From contig NZ_WPZY01000005.1 of assembly GCF_013031405.1 (NCBI RefSeq), positions 62,001 through 126,000 of the forward strand: a DNA stretch of 64,000 nt. Direction: 5' to 3'. This stretch comes from Ruegeria sp. HKCCD8929 (GTDB lineage: Bacteria > Pseudomonadota > Alphaproteobacteria > Rhodobacterales > Rhodobacteraceae). Below are positions 35,468 through 56,312 of the stretch, in pieces (position 1 is the stretch's first letter; every line of letters starts with the position of its first letter). The notes under the pieces are model-generated. The model was not told the DNA's origin. It was given only the letters and a program-made list of their open reading frames with translations, and searched no databases. A program made the translations under genes and the position numbers.

Positions 35468-36856
35468 TCACGAATGGATCGGCCCGTCTCCGCAGGCCAG
35501 CGCCGCCTCGCGGACCGCCTCGGAATAGGTCGGATGCGCATGGCAAGTCAGGGCCAGATCCTCGGCCGCTGCGCCGAACTCCATCGCCACGCAGACCTCG
35601 TGGATCAGCTCGCCCGCCGCCGGGCCAATGATATGCGCGCCCAGAATGCGGTCAGTCTCCTTGTCCGCCAGGATCTTGACGAACCCATCCGAGGCAAAGT
35701 TGGCCTTGGCCCGGCCATTGCCCATGAACATGAACTTGCCCACCTTATAGGCGCGGCCCTGTTCCTTGAGCGTCTCCTCGGTCTCGCCCACATTGGCCAC
35801 CTCCGGGGCTGTATAAATCACCCCCGGGATGACGCCGTAATTCACATGGCCATGCTTGCCCGCAACCTGCTCGGCCGCTGCCATACCCTCATCCTCGGCC
35901 TTGTGCGCCAGCATCGGCCCGTCGATCGCATCGCCGATGGCATAGATGCCCGGCACATTGGTCTGCCAGTCCTTGCCGACCTTGATCTGACCGCCCTTTG
36001 TGGTCTCGATCCCCAGCGCGTCCAGCCCCAGCCCCTCGGTATAGGGACGGCGGCCCGTGGCGACCAGCACCACGTCGGCATCCAGCACATGCTCGCTGTC
36101 ATCCTTGCGCAGCTTATAGGTGACCTTGGCCTTGGTCTTGGTCGCATCGGTCTTCTGCACCGCCGCGCCCATGATGAATTTCAGCCCCTGCTTCTTGAGG
36201 ATGCGCTGGAACGTCTTCTGCACCTCGCCATCCATGCCCGGCGTCACCACGTTGAGGAATTCGATCACTGTCACCTCGGTGCCCAGACGCTGATAGACCG
36301 AGCCCAGTTCCAGCCCGATCACCCCGGCCCCGATGACCACCATCTTCTTGGGGATCTTGCCCAGTTCCAGCGCGCCGGTCGATGTCACCACAACCTTCTC
36401 GTCCACCTCGACCCCCGGCAGCGAAGACGGCTCCGACCCGCTGGCGATGATGATGTTCTTGGCCTCGTGCACCTCGTCGCCCACCTTGACCTTGCCGGCC
36501 TCGGGAATGCTGCCCCAACCCTTGAGCCAGTCGATCTTGTTCTTCTTGAACAGGAACTCGATGCCCTTGGTGTTGCCGTCGATGACGTCATCCTTGTAGG
36601 CCAGCATCTGTTTCCAGTCGACGCTGGGCGATTTGCCCTTCAGGCCCATCTTGGCGAAATTGTGCTGCGCCTCATGCAGGCTGTGGCTGGCATGCAAGAG
36701 CGCCTTGGACGGGATGCAGCCCACGTTCAGACACGTGCCGCCCAGCGTCTCGCGCCCCTCGACCACGGCGGTCTTCAGCCCCAGCTGGGCGCAGCGGATG
36801 GCGCAGACATAGCCGCCGGGTCCGGCGCCGATTACGATGACGTCATATTGGGACAT
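35468..36856 (-). CDS. lpd: Dihydrolipoamide dehydrogenase (E3)
   Basis: FAD enzyme that reoxidises dihydrolipoyl groups of 2-oxoglutarate dehydrogenase and related complexes. The redox pair is Cys42/Cys47 in [13 protein letters not shown]; the FAD motif GAGPGG is near residue 10 and the catalytic HAHPTYSE near the C-terminus. 462 residues. It closes the TCA gene block on the minus strand. Confidence 0.96.
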
Positions 36857-36893
36857 TGACTAGTTTCCTCTTATTGTGGGCGTCCGCCCAACT

Positions 36894-37331
36894 TTAGTGT
36901 TCCTTGTTGCGCATCGGTATAGTTTGGCGAAGCTTTCCGGCACGTTTCAGATGGAGCGTCAAAGCAATCATGACCGCGTAGATCGCCAACCAAAGAGCAA
37001 CATTCAGAGGTTGGACCTGAATGAGATTTTCCATGGCCTGCTCAAACAGCAAGGAAGGCGCAATCCAAAACAGCAAAAGTACGATTGCCAGGTAGAACAT
37101 GCATAAACCGGCGTGTTGCAAAGCGCGTTCCGATACCCGCCACGCAGCACGCGCCCAAAGAAAATGGAGAACACCTCCAACTGCGCTCACGACCAAAAAG
37201 GTGGCGGGCCGGGCCGCTTGTTCAACTGGGTTCAGTTGACCAAGCACCAGGCCCACGACGTTGCCCATCAAGCTGAGCGAAACAAGACCAGCAAATCCGG
37301 CGGCAATCCACATTGAAAGCGGGCGTTTCAT
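36894..37331 (-). CDS. Membrane protein of unknown function inside the TCA block
   Basis: 145 residues with four membrane segments (about 6-30, 42-60, 72-95, 108-128). Lower in GC and different in codon use from odhB and lpd on either side. No family recognised. It is transcribed in the same direction with 93 bp upstream and 37 bp downstream gaps, so it probably rides on the TCA transcript. Confidence 0.72.
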   Translation of the reverse strand: MKRPLSMWIAAGFAGLVSLSLMGNVVGLVLGQLNPVEQAARPATFLVVSAVGGVLHFLWARAAWRVSERALQHAGLCMFYLAIVLLLFWIAPSLLFEQAMENLIQVQPLNVALWLAIYAVMIALTLHLKRAGKLRQTIPMRNKEH

Positions 37332-37424
37332 GCGGGCATCTCCGACGAGTGCTTGTGAACAAGAACTACTGAGCGCAATTCCAGCCCAATCCAGCCCTCT
37401 AGGTTTGTGCGGCCGGTCTTCATG

Positions 37425-37694
37425 TTAAACCGGCGTCAACAGCTTGACCGTGATATGCGCGATGCCACCGCGTTCGTGGTGCATGGCCAGCTCTTCCGAG
37501 CCGAAGAACGCCTTGGCTTTGTCCAGATCGACCACCTCGAACAGCGCGACCGCATGATCGCGCTGATCCGGGTCGCGCCAGACATGCAGGTCGCGGATGC
37601 CCGCCGCCTTGCGCATCGGCTTGTCCTCGCGGAACACCGTCAGCCAGGCGTCGAAATCCGCGACATCCGCTTGCCAGAGAACATGTGTTGCCAT
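37425..37694 (-). CDS. Small ferredoxin-fold (dimeric alpha-beta barrel-like) protein
   Basis: 89 residues starting MATHVLWQADVADFDAWLTVF and containing FEVVDLDKAKAFF, a layout like ABM-type dimeric alpha-beta barrel proteins. Its ATG lies one base past the odhB stop, so it is tightly coupled to odhB. Function unknown. Codon use matches the operon better than the 36894 gene does. Confidence 0.75.
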   Translation of the reverse strand: MATHVLWQADVADFDAWLTVFREDKPMRKAAGIRDLHVWRDPDQRDHAVALFEVVDLDKAKAFFGSEELAMHHERGGIAHITVKLLTPV

Positions 37695-37695
37695 C

Positions 37696-39237
37696 TTACA
37701 GATCCATCAGCAGGCGGCGCGGGTCTTCCAGCGCCTCTTTCACACGCACAAGGAAGGTCACCGCCCCCTTGCCGTCCACGATCCGGTGGTCATAGGACAG
37801 CGCCAGATACATCATCGGGCGGATCTTGATCTCCCCATTCACCACCATCGGACGGTCCTGGATCTTGTGCATCCCCAGAATGCCCGATTGCGGTGGGTTC
37901 AGGATCGGCGAGGACATCAGCGAGCCGTAAACGCCACCGTTCGAGATGGTGAAGGTACCGCCCTGCATCTCGGCCATGCTCAGCTTGCCCTCACGGGCGC
38001 GCTTGCCCTTTTCACCGATCGCCTTTTCGATCGCGGCAAACGACATCGAATCCGCATCCCGGATCACCGGCACCACCAGACCCTGCGGCGTGCCAGCCGC
38101 CACGCCCATATGGACGTAGTTCTTGTAGACGATGTCATTGCCATCGATCTCGGCATTGACCTCAGGCACCTCCTTCAGCGCATGACAGCAGGCCTTGGTG
38201 AAGAAAGACATAAAGCCCAGCCGGACCCCGTGTTTCTTCTCGAACTGCTCCTTGTACTGGTTGCGCAGGGCCATCACCTCGGTCATGTCCACCTCATTGT
38301 AGGTGGTCAGGATCGCGGCGGTGTTCTGGGCATCCTTCAGACGCTTGGCGATGGTCTGACGCAGACGGGTCATGCGCACCCGTTCCTCGCGCACCGCGTC
38401 CTCGGCAGCCACCGGCGCGCGCGGCGCCTGGGCAGCCGGGGCGGACGCAGCCGCCGCAGGCCCAGAGGAAACAGGTGCGGCCGTGGCTGCCGCTGCAACC
38501 GCGCGGGCCACATCCTCTTTCATCACGCGCCCGTCACGGCCCGTACCGGCCACTTGATCGGCGCTCAGACCGGCCTCGGCCATCGCCTTCTCCGCCGACG
38601 GCGCGTTGGCCACATCCCTGGCGCCGCCGGTGGCAACTGCCGGGGTGACCGCCGCCGCAGGCGCAGCCGGAGCCCGCCCGGCACCTGCCGCCGCACCCGA
38701 GATTACCGCCAGCTTGGCCGTGGCGTCCACCGTGGTGCCTTCGGGCGCCACGATCTCTGCCAGCACGCCCGAGGCGGGGGCCGGAACCTCGACCGAAACC
38801 TTGTCGGTTTCCAGCTCGCACAGCATCTCATCCTGCGCCACGCTGTCGCCCACCTGCTTGAACCAGGTCGACACGGTGGCCTCGGTGACCGACTCGCCCA
38901 GCGTGGGCACCATCACGTCGATGCTGCCACCCGCCGCGGCAGGCGCTGCCGCCGGGGCCGGAGCCGCCGCCGCGGCAGCCGGGGCAGGGGCCGCGCCTTC
39001 GCCCGCGGTGATGGTGGCCAGCAACGCATCGACGCCCACCGTCTCGCCTTCGGCAGCGACGATCTCGCCCATCGCACCGGCGGCGGGCGAGGGCACTTCC
39101 ACCGTCACCTTGTCGGTCTCCAACTCACACAGCATCTCATCCACGGCCACGGCATCGCCGGGCTTCTTGAACCAGGTGGCCACCGTTGCTTCGGTCACGG
39201 ATTCGCCAAGCGTAGGTACTCGAACTTCGATCGTCAT
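37696..39237 (-). CDS. odhB: 2-oxoglutarate dehydrogenase E2 with two lipoyl domains
   Basis: Transfers the succinyl group from E1 to CoA. Two lipoyl domains are present, with lipoyl lysines Lys43 and Lys146, both in ELETDK, joined by Ala/Pro linkers; then the E3/E1-binding domain and a catalytic domain with SYDHRIVDG. Most bacterial E2o proteins carry one lipoyl domain. 513 residues. Three bases separate it from odhA upstream. Confidence 0.95.
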
Positions 39238-39240
39238 CGC

Positions 39241-42198
39241 TTACTTTCCTTCGATGCTCAGCGCTTCGTTCACGAGCGCTTCCTGTTGGGCTTTGTGTTG
39301 GCTGGCCAGACCCGTCGCGGGCGAGGCAGAGGTTGCACGGCCCGCATAGCGCGGCCGCTTGTGTTCGGCGCCGATCCGGGTCAGCACCCATTCGATATTG
39401 GGCTCGATGAAGGACCAGGCACCCTGGTTCTTGGGCTCTTCCTGGCACCAGACCATCTCGGCCTGCTTGAACCGCTCCAGCTCATTGATCAGCGAATGCG
39501 CCGGGAACGGGTAATACTGCTCGATCCGCATCAGGTAGATGTCGTCGATCCCGCGCGCGTCGCGCTCTTCCAGCAGGTCGAAATAGACCTTGCCCGAACA
39601 CATCACCACGCGCTTGATCTTGTCATCCGCCACCAGCTTGGTGTCCGAATTGCCCTTCTGCGCGTCGTCCCACAGCACCCGGTGAAAGCTCGACCCGGTG
39701 GTGAAATCCTCGGCCGTGCTGATCGCCAGCTTGTGGCGCAGCAGCGACTTGGGGGTCACCAGGATCAGCGGCTTGCGGAAGGTACGGTGCAACTGACGGC
39801 GCAGGATATGGAAATAGTTCGCGGGCGTCGTGCAGTTGGCCACGATCCAGTTGTCCTGGCCGCACATCTGCAGATAGCGCTCAAGCCGCGCGGACGAGTG
39901 CTCGGGGCCCTGGCCCTCGAACCCGTGCGGCAGCAGGGTCACCAGACCCGACATCCGCAACCACTTCGATTCACCCGAGCTGATGAACTGATCGAACATG
40001 ATCTGCGCGCCATTGGCGAAATCGCCGAACTGCGCCTCCCACAGCACCAGCGCGTTGGGTTCGGCCAGCGAATAACCGTATTCGAACCCGAGCACCGCAT
40101 ATTCCGACAGCATCGAGTCGATCACCTCGTATTGCGACTGCCCGGCGCGGATATTGTTGAGCGGGTAATACCGTTCCTCGGTTTCCTGATGCACAAAGCC
40201 CGAATGCCGTTGGCTGAAGGTGCCGCGCGTGGCGTCCTGCCCGGCCAGACGCACCGGATAGCCCTCGGTCAGAAGCGAGCCAAAGGCCAGCGCCTCACCG
40301 GTGGCCCAGTCGAACCCCTTGCCGGCGTCGAACATCTGCTTCTTGGCGTCCAGCAGACGCCCCACGGTCTTGTGCATGGCAAAGCCTTCGGGTGCGCGGG
40401 TCAGCGCCACACCAATCTCGGCCAGGGTCTCGGGCGAGATCGCGGTCTCGCCGCGCATATATTCGTCCTTGCTCTTGTCCATGTGCGACCAGCGCCCGTC
40501 CAGCCAGTCGGCCTTATTGGGCTTGTAATCCCTGCCGGCCTCGAACTCATCGTTCAGATGCGCCTGGAAGGCGGCCTTCATGTCCTCGATTTCGCCCTCC
40601 GGGATCAGCCCGTCCTTGACCAGCCGCTCGGTATAGAGGCTCAGCGTGGTCTTATGGGTCTTGATCTTCTTGTACATGATCGGGTTGGTGAACATGGGCT
40701 CATCGCCCTCGTTATGCCCGAACCGGCGATAGCAGAAGATGTCGATGACCACGTCCTTGTGGAACTTCTGCCGGAACTCGGTCGCCACCTTGGCCGCGTG
40801 TACCACCGCTTCGGGGTCGTCGCCGTTGACGTGGAAGATCGGCGCCTCGACCATCAGGGCGATATCTGTGGGGTAGGGGGACGAGCGGCTGAAATGCGGC
40901 GCGGTGGTGAACCCGATCTGGTTGTTCACCACGATATGCATGGTGCCGCCGGTCTTGTGCCCGCGCAGACCCGACAGGCCGAACCCTTCGGCCACCACAC
41001 CCTGACCGGCAAAGGCCGCATCGCCATGCAGCAGGATGCCCATCACCCTGGTGCGGTCGGCATCGTTCAACTGGTCCTGCTTGGCGCGAACCTTGCCCAG
41101 CACCACCGGATTCACCGCCTCAAGGTGCGAGGGGTTGGCGGTCAGCGACAGGTGCACGGTGTTGCCGTCGAACTCCCGGTCGCTCGACGCGCCCAGGTGA
41201 TATTTCACATCGCCCGAGCCATCCACGTCCTCGGGCTTGAAGCTGCCGCCCTGGAACTCGTTGAAGATGGCGCGATAGGGCTTGCCCATCACGTTGGCCA
41301 GAATGTTCAGACGGCCCCGGTGCGGCATGCCGATCACGATGTCCTGCAGCCCCAGCGCGCCGCCGCGCTTGATGATCTGCTCCATCGCCGGGATCAGGCT
41401 TTCGCCCCCATCCAGACCGAACCGCTTGGTGCCCATGTATTTGACATGCAGGAACTTCTCGAATCCCTCGGCCTCGACCATCTTGTTCAGGATCGCCTTG
41501 CGGCCCTCGCGGGTGAACCGGACCTCCTTGCCAAAGCCCTCGATCCGCTCCTTCAGCCAGGCCGATTCCTCGGGGTTCGAGATATGCATGTACTGCAGCG
41601 CGAAGGTGCCGCAATAGGTCCGTTTCACCAGTTCGACGATCTGGCGCATGCTGGCCATCTGCAGGCCCAGCACGTTGTCGATGAAGATCGGCCGGTCCAT
41701 GTCGGCATCGGTAAAGCCATAGGTCCGGGGATCCAGTTCGGGATGCGGCGTGCCCGCACGCATGCCCAGCGGGTCCAGATCGGCGACCAGATGGCCCCGG
41801 ATACGATAGGCCCGGATCAGCATCAGCGCCCGGATCGAATCCAGCACTGCCCGCTTGATCTGATCTTCGCTGACCGCGACACCGGCGGCATCCGCCTTGG
41901 CCTTGATCTTCTTGCCGGCGGCCTTGGCATCGACAGCAGGCCATTCCCCGGTCAACGCCCCCGTCACTTCGTCGGCGGGCATCGGCGGCCAGTCGGCCCG
42001 CGCCCAAGAAGGCCCCTCGGCCTCTTTCTTCACATCCAGCTCAGCATCGCCCATCTGCCGGAAGAACTCACCCCAAGCGGCATCCACCGCGCCGGGGTCG
42101 TTGGCATACTGAGCGTAAAGCTGCTCCAGATACTCGGCATTATGCCCCTGCATGAAGCTGGAGGCATGGAACACGTCGTTGGGCGTATGTTCGGTCAT
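39241..42198 (-). CDS. odhA: 2-oxoglutarate dehydrogenase E1
   Basis: ThDP enzyme that decarboxylates 2-oxoglutarate. 985 residues, full length; motifs such as GMPHRGRLN, HGDAAFAGQGVV and a TPKSLLRHK stretch near the C-terminus are those of E1o. The ATG overlaps the stop of a 51-codon gene upstream (ATGA), so translation is coupled to that gene. Confidence 0.97.
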   Translation of the reverse strand: MTEHTPNDVFHASSFMQGHNAEYLEQLYAQYANDPGAVDAAWGEFFRQMGDAELDVKKEAEGPSWARADWPPMPADEVTGALTGEWPAVDAKAAGKKIKAKADAAGVAVSEDQIKRAVLDSIRALMLIRAYRIRGHLVADLDPLGMRAGTPHPELDPRTYGFTDADMDRPIFIDNVLGLQMASMRQIVELVKRTYCGTFALQYMHISNPEESAWLKERIEGFGKEVRFTREGRKAILNKMVEAEGFEKFLHVKYMGTKRFGLDGGESLIPAMEQIIKRGGALGLQDIVIGMPHRGRLNILANVMGKPYRAIFNEFQGGSFKPEDVDGSGDVKYHLGASSDREFDGNTVHLSLTANPSHLEAVNPVVLGKVRAKQDQLNDADRTRVMGILLHGDAAFAGQGVVAEGFGLSGLRGHKTGGTMHIVVNNQIGFTTAPHFSRSSPYPTDIALMVEAPIFHVNGDDPEAVVHAAKVATEFRQKFHKDVVIDIFCYRRFGHNEGDEPMFTNPIMYKKIKTHKTTLSLYTERLVKDGLIPEGEIEDMKAAFQAHLNDEFEAGRDYKPNKADWLDGRWSHMDKSKDEYMRGETAISPETLAEIGVALTRAPEGFAMHKTVGRLLDAKKQMFDAGKGFDWATGEALAFGSLLTEGYPVRLAGQDATRGTFSQRHSGFVHQETEERYYPLNNIRAGQSQYEVIDSMLSEYAVLGFEYGYSLAEPNALVLWEAQFGDFANGAQIMFDQFISSGESKWLRMSGLVTLLPHGFEGQGPEHSSARLERYLQMCGQDNWIVANCTTPANYFHILRRQLHRTFRKPLILVTPKSLLRHKLAISTAEDFTTGSSFHRVLWDDAQKGNSDTKLVADDKIKRVVMCSGKVYFDLLEERDARGIDDIYLMRIEQYYPFPAHSLINELERFKQAEMVWCQEEPKNQGAWSFIEPNIEWVLTRIGAEHKRPRYAGRATSASPATGLASQHKAQQEALVNEALSIEGK

Positions 42199-42350
42199 TG
42201 GGCTACCTCATATGGGTTGGGACCGTATTGATTGGGGCCAGACTGGGATTTGGCGCAGAGCCAGAAATACCAGTATTCCGCACCAGATGCGCGGCGCGAT
42301 AAGAGCATGCGTTTTTCAAAGCACATGTTGATGGCGCCAGAGAAGGTCAT
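42195..42350 (-). CDS. 51-residue small protein coupled to odhA on both sides
   Basis: Starts with ATG at 42350 inside the stop of the upstream gene (ATGA) and ends with TGA inside the odhA ATG (ATGA). It reads MTFSGAINMCFEKRMLLSRR, an aromatic stretch EYWYFWLCAKS, and ends in an N/Q/Y/P-rich tail (QYGPNPYEVAQ). Two tight overlaps make translation very likely. A start at 42326 (second Met) is possible. No family recognised; a role in E1o translation or assembly is only a guess. Confidence 0.72.
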   Translation of the reverse strand: MTFSGAINMCFEKRMLLSRRASGAEYWYFWLCAKSQSGPNQYGPNPYEVAQ

Positions 42351-43081
42351 TGCTGCACCTCCTCAGCGGCGTTCAGGGATTTGGGAACGACTTGGATATT
42401 CGCCGGAGCCAGAAGCTCTCTCAAATGAGGGCCCATGTCTTTCCGGTCGGTGTCTTCCGCTTCCGCTTTGGACAGGACCTCAACAAAAGCATCAACATCG
42501 ACAAGCGACATAGCGAACATGGCGTTGCCATGCTCGCCAAGCATGAGGGTAACAAGTTCGGTTTTAGCCTGGAGCCCGTCGTTTGCACCATTGCGCAAGG
42601 CTGTATGCACCAACCAATCGGGCCCTGCAAAAGCGCAATAGGGTTTGCCCTCCTCAACACCTACCAACGCGAGGCGAATGTCCGAAAGAACAAAGGCCGG
42701 CTGATTGGCCCCCAACTCAGAGTTGCCCAGAATCGAAACCGCCATGAAGAGAGCGTTGTCGACGGTATGCGCCGGGTTTGTCGCATCAACTGAAAATGCG
42801 ATTGCATTTGATGCCAGTATCGAAGCTGGCCCCTCTTCCCAAGGCGCCCAGCCCACACTCTCCAGCGTTGCGCGTGCGGTTTGCAGGCTTTCCATGCCAC
42901 CAGAGCACAGGTCCAGCGCGGTCACCAGGGCTTCCTCGATCTCTTTTTGAGGCTTTGCGGAAACAGCAGACCCCGCTGCCAACAAACCAAACGCTAATGA
43001 CATCAACCCGGAACGGATTGACCGCTCCGGGATCGTATGAGGCCTGCTAAAAGCAGTTTCCTTAGCTCTTGCAGGCCTCAT
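42347..43081 (-). CDS. Secreted protein of unknown function inside the TCA block
   Basis: 244 residues from ATG at 43081, preceded by GGAAAG. A basic n-region, hydrophobic SLAFGLLAAGSAVSA and likely cleavage site indicate export. The mature part has two cysteines and resembles no family I know. An internal ATG (43003) would lack the basic n-region. GC and codon use are lower than in sucD and odhA. The start codon itself lies in one arm of an 11-bp inverted repeat. Its stop overlaps the 51-residue gene. Confidence 0.72.
   Translation of the reverse strand: MRPARAKETAFSRPHTIPERSIRSGLMSLAFGLLAAGSAVSAKPQKEIEEALVTALDLCSGGMESLQTARATLESVGWAPWEEGPASILASNAIAFSVDATNPAHTVDNALFMAVSILGNSELGANQPAFVLSDIRLALVGVEEGKPYCAFAGPDWLVHTALRNGANDGLQAKTELVTLMLGEHGNAMFAMSLVDVDAFVEVLSKAEAEDTDRKDMGPHLRELLAPANIQVVPKSLNAAEEVQQ
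43037..43081. repeat. Inverted repeat covering a start codon
   Basis: ATGAGGCCTGC (43037-43047 on the plus strand) and GCAGGCCTCAT (43071-43081) are perfect 11-bp arms around a 23-base loop. On the minus strand the arm holds the start codon of the secreted-protein gene, two bases past the sucD stop. Confidence 0.85.
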
Positions 43082-43082
43082 C

Positions 43083-43967
43083 TCACTTTCCAATCGCTTC
43101 CAGCACCGCCTCACCCAGTTGAGCGGGGCTTTCGGCGACCACGATACCGGCCGAGCGCATGGCTTCGATCTTGTCCTCGGCGCCGCCCTTGCCACCGGCA
43201 ACAATCGCACCGGCGTGGCCCATGCGGCGGCCCGGAGGGGCCGTGCGGCCAGCGATGAACCCGGCGGTCGGCTTGGACCGGCCCTTCTTGGCCTCATCCG
43301 CCAGGAACTGCGCGGCCTCTTCCTCGGCCGAACCGCCGATCTCGCCGATCATGATGATCGACTGGGTCTCGTCATCGGCCAGGAACCACTCCAGCACGTC
43401 GATATGCTCGGTGCCCTTGATCGGGTCGCCGCCGATGCCGATACAGCTCGACTGGCCCAGTCCTACGTCGGTCGTCTGTTTCACAGCTTCGTAGGTAAGC
43501 GTACCCGAGCGCGAAACGACACCCACGCTCCCGCGTTTGTGAATATGTCCCGGCATGATGCCGATCTTGCAGGCATCGGGCGTGATCACGCCAGGGCAGT
43601 TCGGCCCGACCAGACGCGAGTTCGAGCCTTCCAGCGCGCGCTTCACCTTCATCATGTCCAGCACCGGGATGCCTTCGGTGATGCAGACGATCACCTCCAT
43701 CTCGGCATCGATCGCCTCGAGGATCGAGTCGGCGGCAAAGGGCGGCGGCACGTAGATCACGCTCGCATTGGCCTCGGTCACATGCTTGGCCTCGTGCACC
43801 GAGTTGAAGACCGGCAGGTCGAGATGGGTCATGCTGCCCTTGCCGGGTGTCACGCCGCCAACCATCTTGGTGCCATAGGCGATGGCCTGTTCGGTGTGAA
43901 ACGTCCCCTGCGAGCCGGTCAGGCCCTGACAGATGACTTTGGTGTTTTCGTCGATGAGGACTGCCAT
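43083..43967 (-). CDS. sucD: Succinyl-CoA ligase, alpha subunit
   Basis: Converts succinyl-CoA to succinate with ATP or GTP formation, with SucC. The phosphorylated His is His251 in [19 protein letters not shown] binds CoA near the N-terminus. 294 residues from ATG at 43967, preceded by GGAGA; the open frame upstream has no family match. Confidence 0.96.
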
Positions 43968-44010
43968 TTTGAGGAGTCTCCTGAATTTTGCCGCGCAGCC
44001 TGCGCGATTG

Positions 44011-44400
44011 TTAAGCCTCTGAGGCGATAACCGCCCCACCAAGTTTTTTTCCTTCAGCTTTTCCACCGTGGGAGTGGTGCAAACGAATGACCTCGAAACG
44101 GTTTGCGTCATTCGACTGAACAAACACAGATTCGATCTTGGCGCGTCGCATGGACTTCTCGATTTCTTTCATCGCTTCGCGCCAATGTTCGAAGAGCCCC
44201 AAATCACGATACAGGTTGCCTGACTGCCTGAATAACGCCGCAGAAACAGGTCCATCCTTCAAAGAGCAAACATCGCGCATTTGGGAAACATAGATAGTGT
44301 CAGTTCGGTTCGGATCTGCCAGTCGCTTTTCCTTTAGAACAACGATCAAAACGACCAGTGCTCCAAAGGCCAGTAGCGCGATGGCTTCTCCAACTCCCAT
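44011..44400 (-). CDS. Protein of unknown function between sucC and sucD
   Basis: 129 residues: an N-terminal membrane helix (about 5-22), then a soluble helical part ([25 protein letters not shown]) and a Gly/Lys-rich tail. Starts six bases after the sucC stop. Lower GC and other codon use than sucC and sucD. It splits a gene pair that is usually adjacent. No family recognised. Confidence 0.72.
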
Positions 44401-44406
44401 TGTGGA

Positions 44407-45600
44407 TTAACCCTTCACCGCCTTCACGATCTTCTCGGCACCGTCTTTCAGGTTATCCGCCGCGATCACGTCCAAACCGGATGTGTTGATGATCTCCTTG
44501 CCCTTCTCGACATTGGTGCCTTCCAGACGCACGACCAACGGTACTTGCAGGCCGACCTCTTTCACCGCTGCCACCACGCCCTCGGCGATGACGTCACAGC
44601 GCATGATGCCGCCGAAGATGTTGACCAGAATGCCCTTCACCTGCGGGTCGCTGGTGATGATCTTGAACGCCTCGGTCACCTTCTCTTTGGTCGCACCGCC
44701 GCCCACGTCGAGGAAGTTGGCAGGCTCGGCCCCATACAGCTTGATGATGTCCATCGTCGCCATCGCCAGACCGGCACCGTTGACCATGCAGCCGATCTCG
44801 CCATCCAGCGCGATGTAGTTCAGGTCATACTTGCTGGCTTCCAGCTCTTTCGGGTCTTCCTCGGTGGTGTCGCGCAGCTCGGCGATATCCGGGTGGCGGT
44901 AGACCGCGTTGCCGTCAAAGCCGACCTTGGCGTCAAGCACTTTCAGGTCGCCCTTGTCCGAGATGATCAGCGGGTTGATCTCCAGCATCTCCATGTCCTT
45001 CTCGACGAAGGCCTGGTACAGCTGGCTCATCAACTTGACGCATTGCTTGACCTGCGCGCCCTGCAGACCCAGCGAAAACGCGATGCGGCGGCCATGATAG
45101 GCCTGATAGCCGGTGGCCGGATCGACCGAGAAGGACAGGATCTTCTCGGGCGTCGCGGCGGCCACCTCTTCGATGTCCATGCCGCCCTCGGTCGAGCAGA
45201 CAAACGAGATGCGGCTGGTCTGACGATCCACCAACAGGGCCAGATACAACTCGCGCTCGATGCCGGACCCGGCTTCGATATAGATGCGGTTGACCTGCTT
45301 GCCCGCCGGGCCGGTCTGATGAGTGACCAGCGTGCGGCCCAGCATCTTCTTGGCTTCCTCGGCGGCTTCCTCGACCGATTTGGTCAGACGCACACCGCCC
45401 TTTTCACCCGCATCGGCTTCCTTGAACGACCCCTTGCCGCGACCGCCTGCGTGGATCTGAGCCTTGACGACCCAAAGCGGCCCGTCCAGCTCACCGGCTG
45501 CGGTTTTGGCCTCTTCGGCGCGCAACACGGCGCGGCCATCAGATACCGGTGCGCCATAACTGCGCAAAAGAGCTTTGGCCTGATATTCGTGAATGTTCAT
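44407..45600 (-). CDS. sucC: Succinyl-CoA ligase, beta subunit
   Basis: ATP-grasp subunit of succinyl-CoA ligase. [12 protein letters not shown] at the start and [15 protein letters not shown] near the end are typical. 397 residues from ATG at 45600; a longer frame upstream is non-coding in look. First gene of the suc-odh-lpd unit, with a paired operator 109-139 bp upstream of the ATG. Confidence 0.96.
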
Positions 45601-45708
45601 CGAAACTGTCCCGTCTGACTGCGATTGAACCGATATAGGCGTGTCTAGGCCCAATGGTTAAAGGCTTTTTTGACGTTGAGCGGGATTTTCACGAAGATTT
45701 TCATCATT

Positions 45709-45739
45709 TGTGATCACAGGGTTTTGGGGTGTGATCACA
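45709..45739. promoter_or_regulatory. Paired TGTGATCACA operator upstream of sucC
   Basis: Two perfect 10-bp palindromes TGTGATCACA at 45709-45718 and 45730-45739, centres exactly 21 bp apart, so on the same face of the helix. They lie 109-139 bp before the sucC ATG. The same pair with the same spacing stands before sdhC. The regulator is not known. Confidence 0.75.
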
Positions 45740-52401: not shown

Positions 52402-52489
52402 CGTGATCACAAGCTGGGGCCGTTGATATCGCTCACATTCCCGCGCTGATTGCCTGTTTGTGATCACACTGTTTCGCGCCGTGATCACA
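52402..52489. promoter_or_regulatory. Three TGTGATCACA-like palindromes upstream of sdhC
   Basis: CGTGATCACA at 52402-52411, TGTGATCACA at 52459-52468 and CGTGATCACA at 52480-52489. The last two are 21 bp apart centre to centre and end 115 bp before the sdhC ATG, nearly the geometry seen before sucC. Confidence 0.75.
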
Positions 52490-52603
52490 AACACCTGCAA
52501 ACTGCCACTTTAGGCCAAATTTCGCGTTTATTTGCAATTGCAGCACGTGACACATCCGGAAAATACGGTAAAAACTTCCTCAGCCAACCGGAAAGGAGCC
52601 ACC

Positions 52604-52990
52604 ATGGCCGATGTCAATCGGGGCAATCGCCCGCTTTCGCCGCATTTGACGATCTATCGTCCGCAGCTGACTTCCGTCACGTCGATCCTTACCCGGATCA
52701 CCGGAAACGCCCTGATCGTGGCGGCACTGCTGATCGTCTGGTGGTTTCTCGCCGCTGCGACCTCGGCTGAGTATTACGCGGTGGCGAACGGGGTGATCAC
52801 CTCGCTCTTCGGCGATCTGATCATGGCGCTATCACTCTGGGGGCTGTGGTATCACACGCTGGCCGGTGTGCGTCACCTGATCTGGGACAACGCCATGGGC
52901 CTCGACATCCCGACCGCTGAAAAGCTCGGTTGGGCCGTGGTTGCCGGTTCGGTCGTCTTGACCATCCTGACCCTGCTGATTATCCAGTAA
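52604..52990 (+). CDS. sdhC: Succinate dehydrogenase cytochrome b556 subunit SdhC
   Basis: Membrane anchor of complex II. RPLSPHLTIYRPQLTSVTSI is the SdhC N-terminal signature, and His84/His91 (HTLAGVRH) lie at the heme b site. 128 residues, three membrane helices. RBS AAAGGAG, ATG at 52604. Confidence 0.95.
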   Translation: MADVNRGNRPLSPHLTIYRPQLTSVTSILTRITGNALIVAALLIVWWFLAAATSAEYYAVANGVITSLFGDLIMALSLWGLWYHTLAGVRHLIWDNAMGLDIPTAEKLGWAVVAGSVVLTILTLLIIQ

Positions 52991-53002
52991 CGGAGGCCCA
53001 AG

Positions 53003-53374
53003 ATGCGTTATCTCACCGACCGCAAGCGCGCCGTTGGCATGGGCTCGGCCAAGACCGGAACCGCACATTTCTGGGCCATGAAGGTCAGCGCGGTGGCTCT
53101 GCTGATCCTCATCCCGCTTTTCGTCTTCACCTTCGGTCCGATGCTGGGCCAGCCGCATGAGGCCGTGGTGGCCTATTTCGCGCGACCCTTCCCGGCGATC
53201 GTTGCCGCGCTGACGCTGGCCGTCGGCTTCAAACATTTCGCAGACGGCGCCCAGGTGCTGATCGAGGACTATGTGCATGGTCTCATGCAGAAGATCCTGA
53301 TCATCCTGGTGATCTGCCTTTCCTATGCCGCTGCCGCGACCGGCCTTTTTGCCATCGCGCGCATCGCACTCTAA
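53003..53374 (+). CDS. sdhD: Succinate dehydrogenase membrane anchor SdhD
   Basis: 123 residues with three membrane helices; [21 protein letters not shown] and [19 protein letters not shown] are typical of alphaproteobacterial SdhD and carry the likely heme and quinone-site residues. RBS CGGAGG. 12 bp after sdhC. Confidence 0.94.
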
Positions 53375-53391
53375 GACCGGAGCTGAAAGAC

Positions 53392-55197
53392 ATGGCTGCT
53401 TACGAATACGAAACGCATGAATATGACGTGGTCGTTGTCGGCGCCGGTGGCGCCGGTCTGCGCGCCACCCTCGGCATGGCCGAGCAGGGGCTGCGCACCG
53501 CTTGCGTGACCAAGGTGTTCCCGACCCGCTCACACACCGTGGCCGCACAGGGCGGAATCGCAGCATCCTTGGGCAACATGGGCCCCGACAGTTGGCAGTG
53601 GCACATGTATGACACCGTCAAGGGTTCCGACTGGCTGGGCGATACGGACGCGATGGAGTACCTCGCGCGCGAGGCGCCCAAGGCGGTTTACGAGCTGGAG
53701 CACTATGGCGTGCCGTTTTCGCGCACGGAAGAGGGCAAGATCTATCAGCGCCCCTTCGGCGGCCACACCACCGAGTTCGGCGAAGGCCCCGCGGTGCAGC
53801 GTACCTGCGCCGCCGCCGACCGGACCGGTCACGCCATCCTGCACACGCTTTATGGCCAGTCGCTGAAAAATAACGCCGAATTCTACATCGAGTATTTCGC
53901 CATCGACCTGATCATGTCCGATGATGGGCAATGTCAGGGCGTCGTCTGCTGGAAGCTGGACGACGGCACCATGCATGTCTTCAACGCCAAGATGGTGGTG
54001 TTGGCGACCGGCGGCTATGGCCGGGCCTATTTCAGCGCCACTTCGGCCCATACCTGCACCGGCGACGGTGGCGGCATGGTGGCTCGCGCCGGACTGGCCC
54101 TGCAGGACATGGAATTCGTTCAGTTCCACCCGACCGGCATCTACGGCTCGGGCTGTCTGATAACCGAAGGCGCGCGGGGCGAAGGTGGCTATCTCACCAA
54201 CTCCGAAGGTGAGCGGTTCATGGAGCGCTATGCGCCACAGTACAAGGACCTCGCGCCGCGCGACTATGTCTCGCGCTCCATGACCATGGAAATCCGCGAA
54301 GGTCGGGGTGTGGGCAAGGAAGGGGATCATATCCACCTCAACCTCAGCCACCTGCCGGCCGAAGCGCTGGCGGAGCGCCTGCCGGGCATTTCCGAGTCGG
54401 CCAAAATCTTTGCCGGTGTGGACGTCACCAAGGAACCGATCCCGGTTCTGCCCACCGTGCACTACAACATGGGCGGCGTGCCGACGAACTATTGGGGCGA
54501 GGTGCTGAACCCCACCGCAGACGACCCGACCGCCGTTGTGCCCGGCCTGATGGCCGTGGGTGAGGCGGGCTGCGCCTCGGTGCATGGGGCGAACCGTCTG
54601 GGCTCGAACTCGCTCATCGACCTCGTGGTGTTTGGGCGTGCCGCCGCGATCCGCGCCGGTAAGGTCGTGGACTCCGAAGCCGCCAACCCGGTGCTGAATC
54701 AGGATTCGGTCGACAAGGCCTTCGACCGGTTTGATGATATTCGCAACGCCAGCGGTTCGATTCCGACTGCCGATCTGCGGCTGGAAATGCAGAAGACCAT
54801 GCAGGCCGACGCCGCCGTCTTCCGCACCGGCAAGACCATGGCCGACGGTGTCGAGAAGATGACCGCGATTGCGGCCAAGATGGACGACCTGAAGGTCACC
54901 GACCGCACGCTGGTCTGGAATTCCGACCTGATGGAGACCCTGGAACTGGCCAACCTGATGCCCAATGCGCTGGCCACCATTGTCGGCGCCGAGGCACGCA
55001 AGGAATCCCGTGGCGCCCATGCGCATGAGGATTTCACTGAGCGCGATGACGAGAACTGGCGTGTGCACACCGTCAGCCGTGTCGAGGGCAACAAGGTCGA
55101 TCTCAGCTATCGCCCGGTGATCGTCGATCCGCTGACCACAGAGAAACAGGGTGGCATCAGCCTCAAGAAAATCGCCCCGAAGGCGCGGACGTTCTGA
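53392..55197 (+). CDS. sdhA: Succinate dehydrogenase flavoprotein subunit SdhA
   Basis: Oxidises succinate to fumarate. FAD motif GAGGAG (residues 17-22), covalent-FAD His48 in [10 protein letters not shown], and [11 protein letters not shown] with the catalytic region downstream. 601 residues, full length. The stop shares its last base with the start of a lipoprotein gene (TGATG). Confidence 0.97.
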
Positions 55198-55517
55198 TGC
55201 GGATTGCTCGGGCTCTGATCGTCCCGGCACTGTTGGCAGGTTGCACAGCCGCCAATGATGCGGCGGATGTGATTGCGCGCGAAAGGGCCAAATCGGTGGT
55301 CAACGGTGTGGTCGCCGACAGGTTTCCGGGCCTGAATTCAGCGCCGATCACCGACTGCATCATCGACGCGGCTTCGGCCGGAGAAATCGTTCAGATCGCC
55401 GGGGCATCCGTGACCGGCGTAACTCAATCCACGGTGGAACAAGTGGTGGAGATATCCAGCCGCCCCGAGGCCGTACAATGTATTGCTGAAAACAGCATTG
55501 CCCTGCTGGGCGGCTGA
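55197..55517 (+). CDS. Lipoprotein of unknown function between sdhA and sdhB
   Basis: 106 residues: lipobox LLAGC (Cys16), then a helical domain with two cysteines (TDCIIDAA, AVQCIAEN) and the stretch VTGVTQSTVEQVVEISSRPE. Shares one base with sdhA (TGATG) and stands 15 bp before sdhB, so it is translated with complex II. No known family; not a standard Sdh subunit or assembly factor. Confidence 0.78.
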   Translation: MRIARALIVPALLAGCTAANDAADVIARERAKSVVNGVVADRFPGLNSAPITDCIIDAASAGEIVQIAGASVTGVTQSTVEQVVEISSRPEAVQCIAENSIALLGG

Positions 55518-55532
55518 GAAGGAGTAGACGAG

Positions 55533-56312
55533 ATGGTTCAACTCACATTGCCCAAGAACTCCCGCATCACCACGGGCAAGACCTGGCCCAAGCCCGAGGG
55601 CGCCACCAATGTGCGCAAGTTCCAGATCTATCGCTGGAACGAGGAAGATGGGCAGAACCCTCGGCTCGACACCTACTTCGTCGATATAGACGATTGCGGC
55701 CCGATGGTTCTGGACGCGCTCATCTACATCAAGAACAAGGTCGACGCGACGCTGACCTTTCGCCGGTCCTGCCGCGAGGGGATTTGCGGATCCTGCGCGA
55801 TGAACATCGATGGCATCAACACCTTGGCCTGCATTTACGGGATGGATGAGATCAAGGGCGACGTGAAGATCTATCCGCTGCCGCATATGCCGGTGGTCAA
55901 GGACCTGATCCCGGATCTCACGCATTTCTACGCCCAGCACGCCAGCATCATGCCGTGGCTGGAGACCAAGACCAATCGCCCGGCGAAGGAGTGGAAACAG
56001 TCCATCGAGGACCGCAAGAAGCTGGATGGCCTGTATGAATGCGTGATGTGCGCCAGCTGCTCGACCTCGTGCCCGAGCTATTGGTGGAACGGCGACCGCT
56101 ACCTCGGCCCTGCCGCTCTGCTGCATGCTTATCGCTGGATCATCGACAGCCGGGACGAGGCGACGGGTGAGCGTCTGGATTATCTGGAAGACCCGTTCAA
56201 GCTCTACCGCTGCCACACGATCATGAACTGCGCAAAGACCTGCCCCAAGGGTCTGAACCCGGCCAAGGCCATCGCCGAGATCAAGAAGATGATGGTCGAG
56301 CGGACGGTTTGA
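55533..56312 (+). CDS. sdhB: Succinate dehydrogenase iron-sulphur subunit SdhB
   Basis: Carries [2Fe-2S] (Cys80, Cys85, Cys88, Cys100), [4Fe-4S] ([10 protein letters not shown]) and [3Fe-4S] ([15 protein letters not shown]) centres to the quinone site. 259 residues. RBS AAGGAG. Confidence 0.97.

Follow-up and report, generated by a model that had tools for sequence, protein, structure and literature searches.

A fixed pair of palindromes before the suc and sdh operons, a probable double operator for the GntR-family regulator AkgR

In R. sphaeroides, the GntR-family protein RSP_0981 is predicted to control sucCD, the 2-oxoglutarate dehydrogenase genes and sdh, according to the available part of the source (PMC4344238). 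The available part of a second paper gives GTGATCAC among the sites of AkgR, which it calls a transcriptional activator, and describes PS417_07240, a GntR-like protein of Pseudomonas simiae that is 32% identical to AkgR, sits at a deoxyribonate oxidation cluster and has a conserved GTGATCAC before its own gene (PMC6365646). PS417_07240 is unlike the system described here in that the deoxyribonate cluster is its proposed target and that one site, with no pair, is reported in that part of the paper (PMC6365646). CceR, in turn, is a LacI-family protein predicted to regulate central carbon metabolism, including sdh, in R. sphaeroides, with the motif [A/G/T]GTT-N6-8-AAC[A/C/T] (PMC4344238, available part). 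Among solved structures, the nearest by sequence to the regulator considered below is McbR of E. coli (PDB 4p9f; E 6.1e-18). The targets of McbR differ from suc and sdh. In what follows we take RSP_0981 to be AkgR and RSP_1663 to be CceR; AkgR is reported to activate TCA genes directly in R. sphaeroides.

The stretch of DNA analysed here (64 kb, referred to as the window) contains a suc-odh-lpd operon and an sdh operon, each preceded by a pair of palindromes. The features are as follows, the operators and promoter elements being predictions.

35468 to 44400, minus strand: small ORF, sucD, sucA, sucB and lpd, downstream of sucC and presumably co-transcribed with it
44407 to 45600, minus strand: sucC, first gene of the suc-odh-lpd operon (NCBIfam PRK00696.1, 590.8 bits)
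45632 to 45637, minus strand: TATATC, the likely -10 element for suc, following TTTAAC by 19 bp or TTAACC by 18 bp
45657 to 45662, minus strand: TTTAAC, the likely -35 element for suc, which starts 55 bp past the first G in the proximal operator
45709 to 45718, no strand assigned: proximal operator of the suc pair, TGTGATCACA, 21 bp from the distal operator
45730 to 45739, no strand assigned: distal operator of the suc pair, TGTGATCACA; a pair with perfect core at 20 or 21 bp stands in 86 of 96 sucC upstream regions
52402 to 52411, no strand assigned: CGTGATCACA, a third and accessory site that precedes the distal sdh operator by 57 bp
52459 to 52468, no strand assigned: distal operator of the sdh pair, TGTGATCACA; a perfect-core pair stands in 72 of 96 sdhC upstream regions
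52480 to 52489, no strand assigned: proximal operator of the sdh pair, CGTGATCACA
52547 to 52552, plus strand: GTGACA, the likely -35 element for sdh, 66 bp past the first G in the proximal operator
52569 to 52574, plus strand: likely -10 element of the sdh promoter, TAAAAA, with a 16-bp spacer
52604 to 56312, plus strand: sdhC, sdhD, sdhA, small ORF and sdhB

Among the matches listed at E up to 1e-20, lpd, sucB, sucA, sucD, sucC, mdh, sdhC, sdhA and sdhB matched NCBIfam models over cut-off, and sdhD matched Pfam Sdh_cyt over cut-off. The two members of the suc pair are perfect copies of TGTGATCACA with a centre-to-centre distance of 21 bp, and they stand 109-139 bp before the sucC start codon (ATG at 45600), exactly as the initial annotation had read them. 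That annotation also saw the same pair before sdhC. This holds for the core, for the spacing (centres again 21 bp apart) and for the distance (115-145 bp to the sdhC ATG at 52604), and fails by one letter in one member: CGTGATCACA is TGTGATCACA with C replacing the first T, its core GTGATCAC unchanged. The third site on the sdh side is again CGTGATCACA; among the 96 sdhC regions, an accessory site lies 57 bp before the distal operator in four and 56 bp before it in one. With up to one mismatch allowed, the window holds five matches against 1.33 expected, and 0 of 100 shuffles reached five.

The genome from which the window comes (6,078,146 bases in 146 contigs) carries 200 copies of GTGATCAC. 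Perfect GTGATCAC-N13-GTGATCAC pairs, at 21 bp, occur only twice, both in the window; 200 sites scattered at random would be expected to form 0.0066 pairs at any one spacing. Both this count and the window shuffles agree with the earlier judgement that chance does not account for the sharing of the site by suc and sdh. The perfect palindrome TGTGATCACA is found five times (two suc, one sdh, one at a regulator gene described below and one within an ORF), and a backwards-read control for the single site gave six. The site within an ORF (C1:231975) was rejected as an operator and counted as chance because it lies inside a 539-aa open frame that has a weak Wzz match below cut-off (24.4 against 25.5 bits) together with nucleotide-binding domains. 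A near-pair with one mismatch (C60:80047) lies within a 537-aa open frame and was set aside as well. Outside suc and sdh, CGTGATCACA occurs at seven sites, under which the longest frames are 584, 696, 547, 239, 110, 435 and 310 aa. The site under the 110-aa frame is intergenic, before an OmpA/YceI gene (L125:1501-1510), and could be a further single site or a chance occurrence; the other six are probably coding, frame length alone being weak evidence in G+C-rich DNA.

We extended the search to 100 genomes of the family, drawn from 99 genera. Of these, 88 carry at least one pair with perfect core at 20 or 21 bp, and the pairs number 160 in total (the sum of the per-genome counts, with which the upstream set of suc and sdh agrees in 98 of the 100 genomes). 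By position and per-genome count, 159 pairs precede suc or sdh, and the remaining one precedes a fumarase gene. Two of the 160 are additional to the upstream set. One, in G071, is a suc pair about 108 bp before a sucC start that is cut by the contig end. The other, in G042 (L422:1501-1529, corresponding to G042:C16:228293-228321), precedes a gene for fumarase C (with both Lyase_1 and FumaraseC_C matching over cut-off), an arrangement found in 1 of the 100 genomes. With these two placed at suc and fumC, all 160 pairs precede TCA genes. In the own genome and its relatives the pairs are thus tied to TCA genes and are not scattered, and they are conserved upstream of both genes, in 86 of 96 regions at sucC and in 72 of 96 at sdhC, as befits the shared operator that was originally proposed. 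The 24 sdhC regions that carry no perfect pair comprise nine from genomes without the regulator, seven with a near-pair (one or two mismatches) and eight others, in which the regulator is present (in one at 49% identity) and a near-pair is absent.

The spacing is narrowly set. Between 8 and 60 bp, with the suc, sdh and akgR upstream regions pooled, the only spacings observed were 21 bp (144), 20 bp (14), 57 bp (4) and 56 bp (1). When the palindromes were searched for at 30 other spacings (22-51 bp), 16 of the 100 genomes yielded 17 pairs, a mean of 0.6 per spacing as against 80 per spacing at 20 and 21 bp. A control with the pair pattern read backwards gave 0 in the family sample. The backwards pattern contains CTAG, a tetranucleotide often scarce in bacterial DNA, and the zeros of that control therefore overstate the case; we prefer the control by other spacings. 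Four of the pairs at other spacings are G042:C12:38212-38250 (31 bp), G061:C169:8619-8648 (22 bp), G069:C245:3559-3590 and G081:C1:524413-524444 (24 bp each); their cores are mostly T/A-flanked, like those of the real operators.

The pair also keeps a near-constant distance to promoter-like elements. For sdh, 55 of the 72 pair-bearing regions have GTGACA/T starting 65-68 bp past the first G of the proximal operator, against 0, 3 and 0 for three altered motifs. When no range was preset, the first GTGACA/T found 36-110 bp past the operator was at 65-68 bp in 54 of the 62 regions having one, and the spacer to a TANNA word, where such a word was found, was 16 bp in 43 of 45. The distance from this box to the ATG in the same 55 regions is variable (sd 19.5 bp, range 53-140); since the distance from operator to box is constant, the pair is fixed to the promoter and not to the gene. 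For suc the evidence for a fixed distance is weaker. In the 86 suc regions with a pair, 52 of the 67 TTTA/TTAA starts located 40-69 bp after the proximal operator fall at 54-56 bp, counts that overlap because they are of starts and not of genomes, and 28 of the 47 -10-like starts located 70-94 bp after the operator fall at 78-80 bp, the own genome having its start at 80. Between suc and sdh the pair-to-box distance changes by about 11-12 bp, close to a single turn of the helix. Relative to the predicted start sites, the operators would lie near -88 and -109 (suc) and near -98 and -119 (sdh). A-rich stretches lie between the pair and the -35 box in the window (45640-45700 and 52500-52545), and such stretches recur in relatives, as TCAAAAAA in many suc regions and as GCGCCAAAAAA in many sdh regions; they are possibly UP-like elements.

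The remaining perfect site in the own genome is at a regulator gene, where TGTGATCACA stands 7 bp before the start. The encoded protein (215 aa; gene at G000:C2:142906-143550) has a GntR domain (PF00392, 49.9 bits) and an FCD domain (PF07729, 60.8 bits), both over cut-off. The position of this single operator is G000:C2:143558-143567 (L002:1501-1510), between TTGACC and the regulator ATG. A scan of named genomes gave 568 relatives, of which the best 80 were kept (close by construction; mostly Ruegeria, also Leisingera, Phaeobacter and others). In 80 of these 80, GTGATCAC is found no more than 80 bp upstream of the aligned start; the nearest relative of the regulator is from Ruegeria at 93% identity. 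Across the family, 59 of 85 orthologues have GTGATCAC within 450 bp upstream; the 26 without it argue that autoregulation is not universal. In 56 of the 59, TTGA starts 17-20 bp ahead of the site, the distance being 18 bp in 46. So placed, the palindrome would span the interval between -35 and -10, as expected for autorepression, and to judge by the box spacing, transcription of the regulator gene may begin at the ATG or close to it, giving a leaderless mRNA. When the regulator (L002:846-1493) is aligned to 3sxy, N stands at the Asp position of the FCD metal site and A at one metal His. Two of the four usual metal ligands thus seem to be missing, and a classic FCD metal site is doubtful.

With its GntR DNA-binding domain, a GTGATCAC operator core, and sucCD, odh and sdh as targets, this system has the features of the AkgR regulon of R. 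sphaeroides, where the regulator is likewise of the GntR family, the core is GTGATCAC and the targets are sucCD, 2-oxoglutarate dehydrogenase and sdh. On the grounds of family, site, targets and neighbourhood (the regulator gene is at most 25 kb from suc or sdh in 30 of 85 genomes), the GntR/FCD protein of this genome is very probably the orthologue of AkgR, and the palindromes are most likely docking sites for it. The regulator was initially regarded as unknown; a GntR regulator of these very operons was, however, already in print as a prediction, in the available part of PMC4344238. Given that prediction for RSP_0981, the system found here adds a member to a regulon already known.

We consider it highly likely that the palindrome pair is a double operator through which the GntR/FCD regulator AkgR would activate suc-odh-lpd and sdh, the single site at the akgR promoter being autorepressive. 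One AkgR dimer would occupy each palindrome through the core GTGATCAC. The two dimers would share a face of the DNA, separated by two helix turns, and their distances from the putative starts downstream would be about 88 and 109 bp at suc and about 98 and 119 bp at sdh. Binding by such an AkgR-like protein would be cooperative, and the paired dimers would activate the suc-odh-lpd and sdh operons jointly. The single site, between the -35-like box and the start codon of akgR, would shut the gene's own promoter when the protein is plentiful.

It is unlikely that control has the opposite sign, with AkgR acting on the pair as a repressor or anti-activator that hinders another activator or loops the DNA until an effector releases it. 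Many FCD-type GntR proteins do repress, and the single site overlies the likely promoter of the regulator gene. The pair, however, lies about 50-65 bp upstream of a -35-like box at a near-fixed distance, as an upstream activator would, and AkgR is termed a transcriptional activator in the available part of PMC6365646.

The assignment to AkgR and not to another protein draws on how regulator and pair are distributed. In the 96 genomes with a sucC upstream region, the suc pair is present in 84 of 85 genomes that have the regulator versus 2 of 11 that lack it (Fisher p 4e-10), and the sdh pair is present in 71 of 86 versus 1 of 10 (p 9e-6), both p values being inflated by the relatedness of the genomes. 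A close orthologue of the regulator was not detected in 12 of the 100 genomes, as judged by the best match of each, and three of the 85 counted as present are a split gene at contig ends (G027 and G091) or a protein of only 49% identity (G033). G040, the sole genome with the regulator and no perfect suc pair, has a pair with one mismatch. On a SucC tree of 70 of the 96 genomes, built by a quick method, the regulator label changes six times. With G019 and G096, which have a suc pair and no detected orthologue, there are six contrasts, two of them strongly supported, and agreement averages 1.5 of 2. When these two genomes are left out there are four independent contrasts, two on strongly supported branches, and the pair follows the regulator on the supported ones in 2.0 of 2 on average. 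So few contrasts allow no significant sign test with or without G019 and G096.

Outside the family, we searched a sample of the class (289 genomes, at least 80% complete). The four family members in it have two pairs each, and one pair is found in 2 of the 285 others. One of these lies inside a coding sequence, an inositol monophosphatase family gene. The other, in a different alphaproteobacterial family (L414:992-1020), is a perfect GTGATCAC pair at 21 bp directly before a GntR/FCD gene, whose product (FCD 83.1 bits, GntR 56.8 bits) is 30% identical to the regulator of the own genome. An apparent TonB receptor gene flanks this pair on one side and the divergent GntR/FCD gene on the other, followed by an apparent short-chain dehydrogenase gene. 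A pair beside so distant a GntR/FCD gene is an independent link between the site and this kind of protein.

That a different regulator, another GntR protein or one of some unknown kind, uses the pair while the AkgR-like gene is merely a co-regulated target is therefore very improbable. The own genome does contain 40 GntR matches (38 over cut-off), and a pair occurs with no detected orthologue in G019 and G096. However, the completeness of G019 is 91% and that of G096 is 77%, suc/sdh co-occur with the site and the regulator gene across the family, and the distant GntR/FCD relative has the same pair at its own gene.

A regulator of the CRP/FNR type, or the LacI-type CceR, can hardly be the user of these sites. 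TGTGA and TCACA are CRP half-site letters, and a CRP site has the form TGTGA-N6-TCACA. In both pairs the halves abut with no 6-bp spacer, as had been recognized at the outset, and CRP/FNR was rejected on this motif form. The available part of PMC4344238 predicts R. sphaeroides to be without a CRP analogue; it gives RSP_1663 a predicted regulon that includes sdh and mdh, but the palindromes, by inspection, do not fit the CceR motif in that source, and LacI/CceR was rejected on motif form too. Of the LacI-, GntR- and CRP-type regulators first considered plausible, the GntR type, as AkgR, is thus the one favoured. Chance, or a restriction, methylation or repeat element with no regulatory role, can practically be dismissed: GATC is part of GTGATCAC, and the genome has as many as 200 single copies, many of those examined lying in long open frames, but the pairs number 160 at two spacings, every one of them upstream of a TCA gene, against 17 at 30 others, and the distance to the -35-like box is fixed.

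If AkgR is indeed the regulator, its identity is largely known and the fixed paired layout may be new. A literature search for TGTGATCACA listed no paper that looked relevant, and the strings 'tandem' and 'autoregul' are absent from the main text of PMC4344238. Compared with the available parts of the AkgR accounts, the double site at 20/21 bp, the fixed -35 distance and the single site at the regulator promoter are what is seen here; these, with the near-exclusive use of the pair at suc and sdh, may be new additions. More tentatively, and with the balance of probability somewhat against it, the regulator could have two types of operator: a single, self-shutting site, and a rigid double site that is fixed to the -35 element, needs two cooperating dimers and, in the sampled genomes, occurs only before TCA operons. 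The difference of about one helix turn between the -35 distances of suc and sdh would then leave both pairs facing RNA polymerase alike, and suc, sdh and once fumarase would form one jointly tuned TCA module through most of the family.

An operator read from raw sequence now has a name, and a regulon predicted in one model species is extended through the family, to 88 of the 100 genomes sampled. In these bacteria the pair predicts very cleanly the two operons that cover the steps from 2-oxoglutarate to fumarate, and with a geometry so fixed, the way in which a GntR protein activates can be put to the test.
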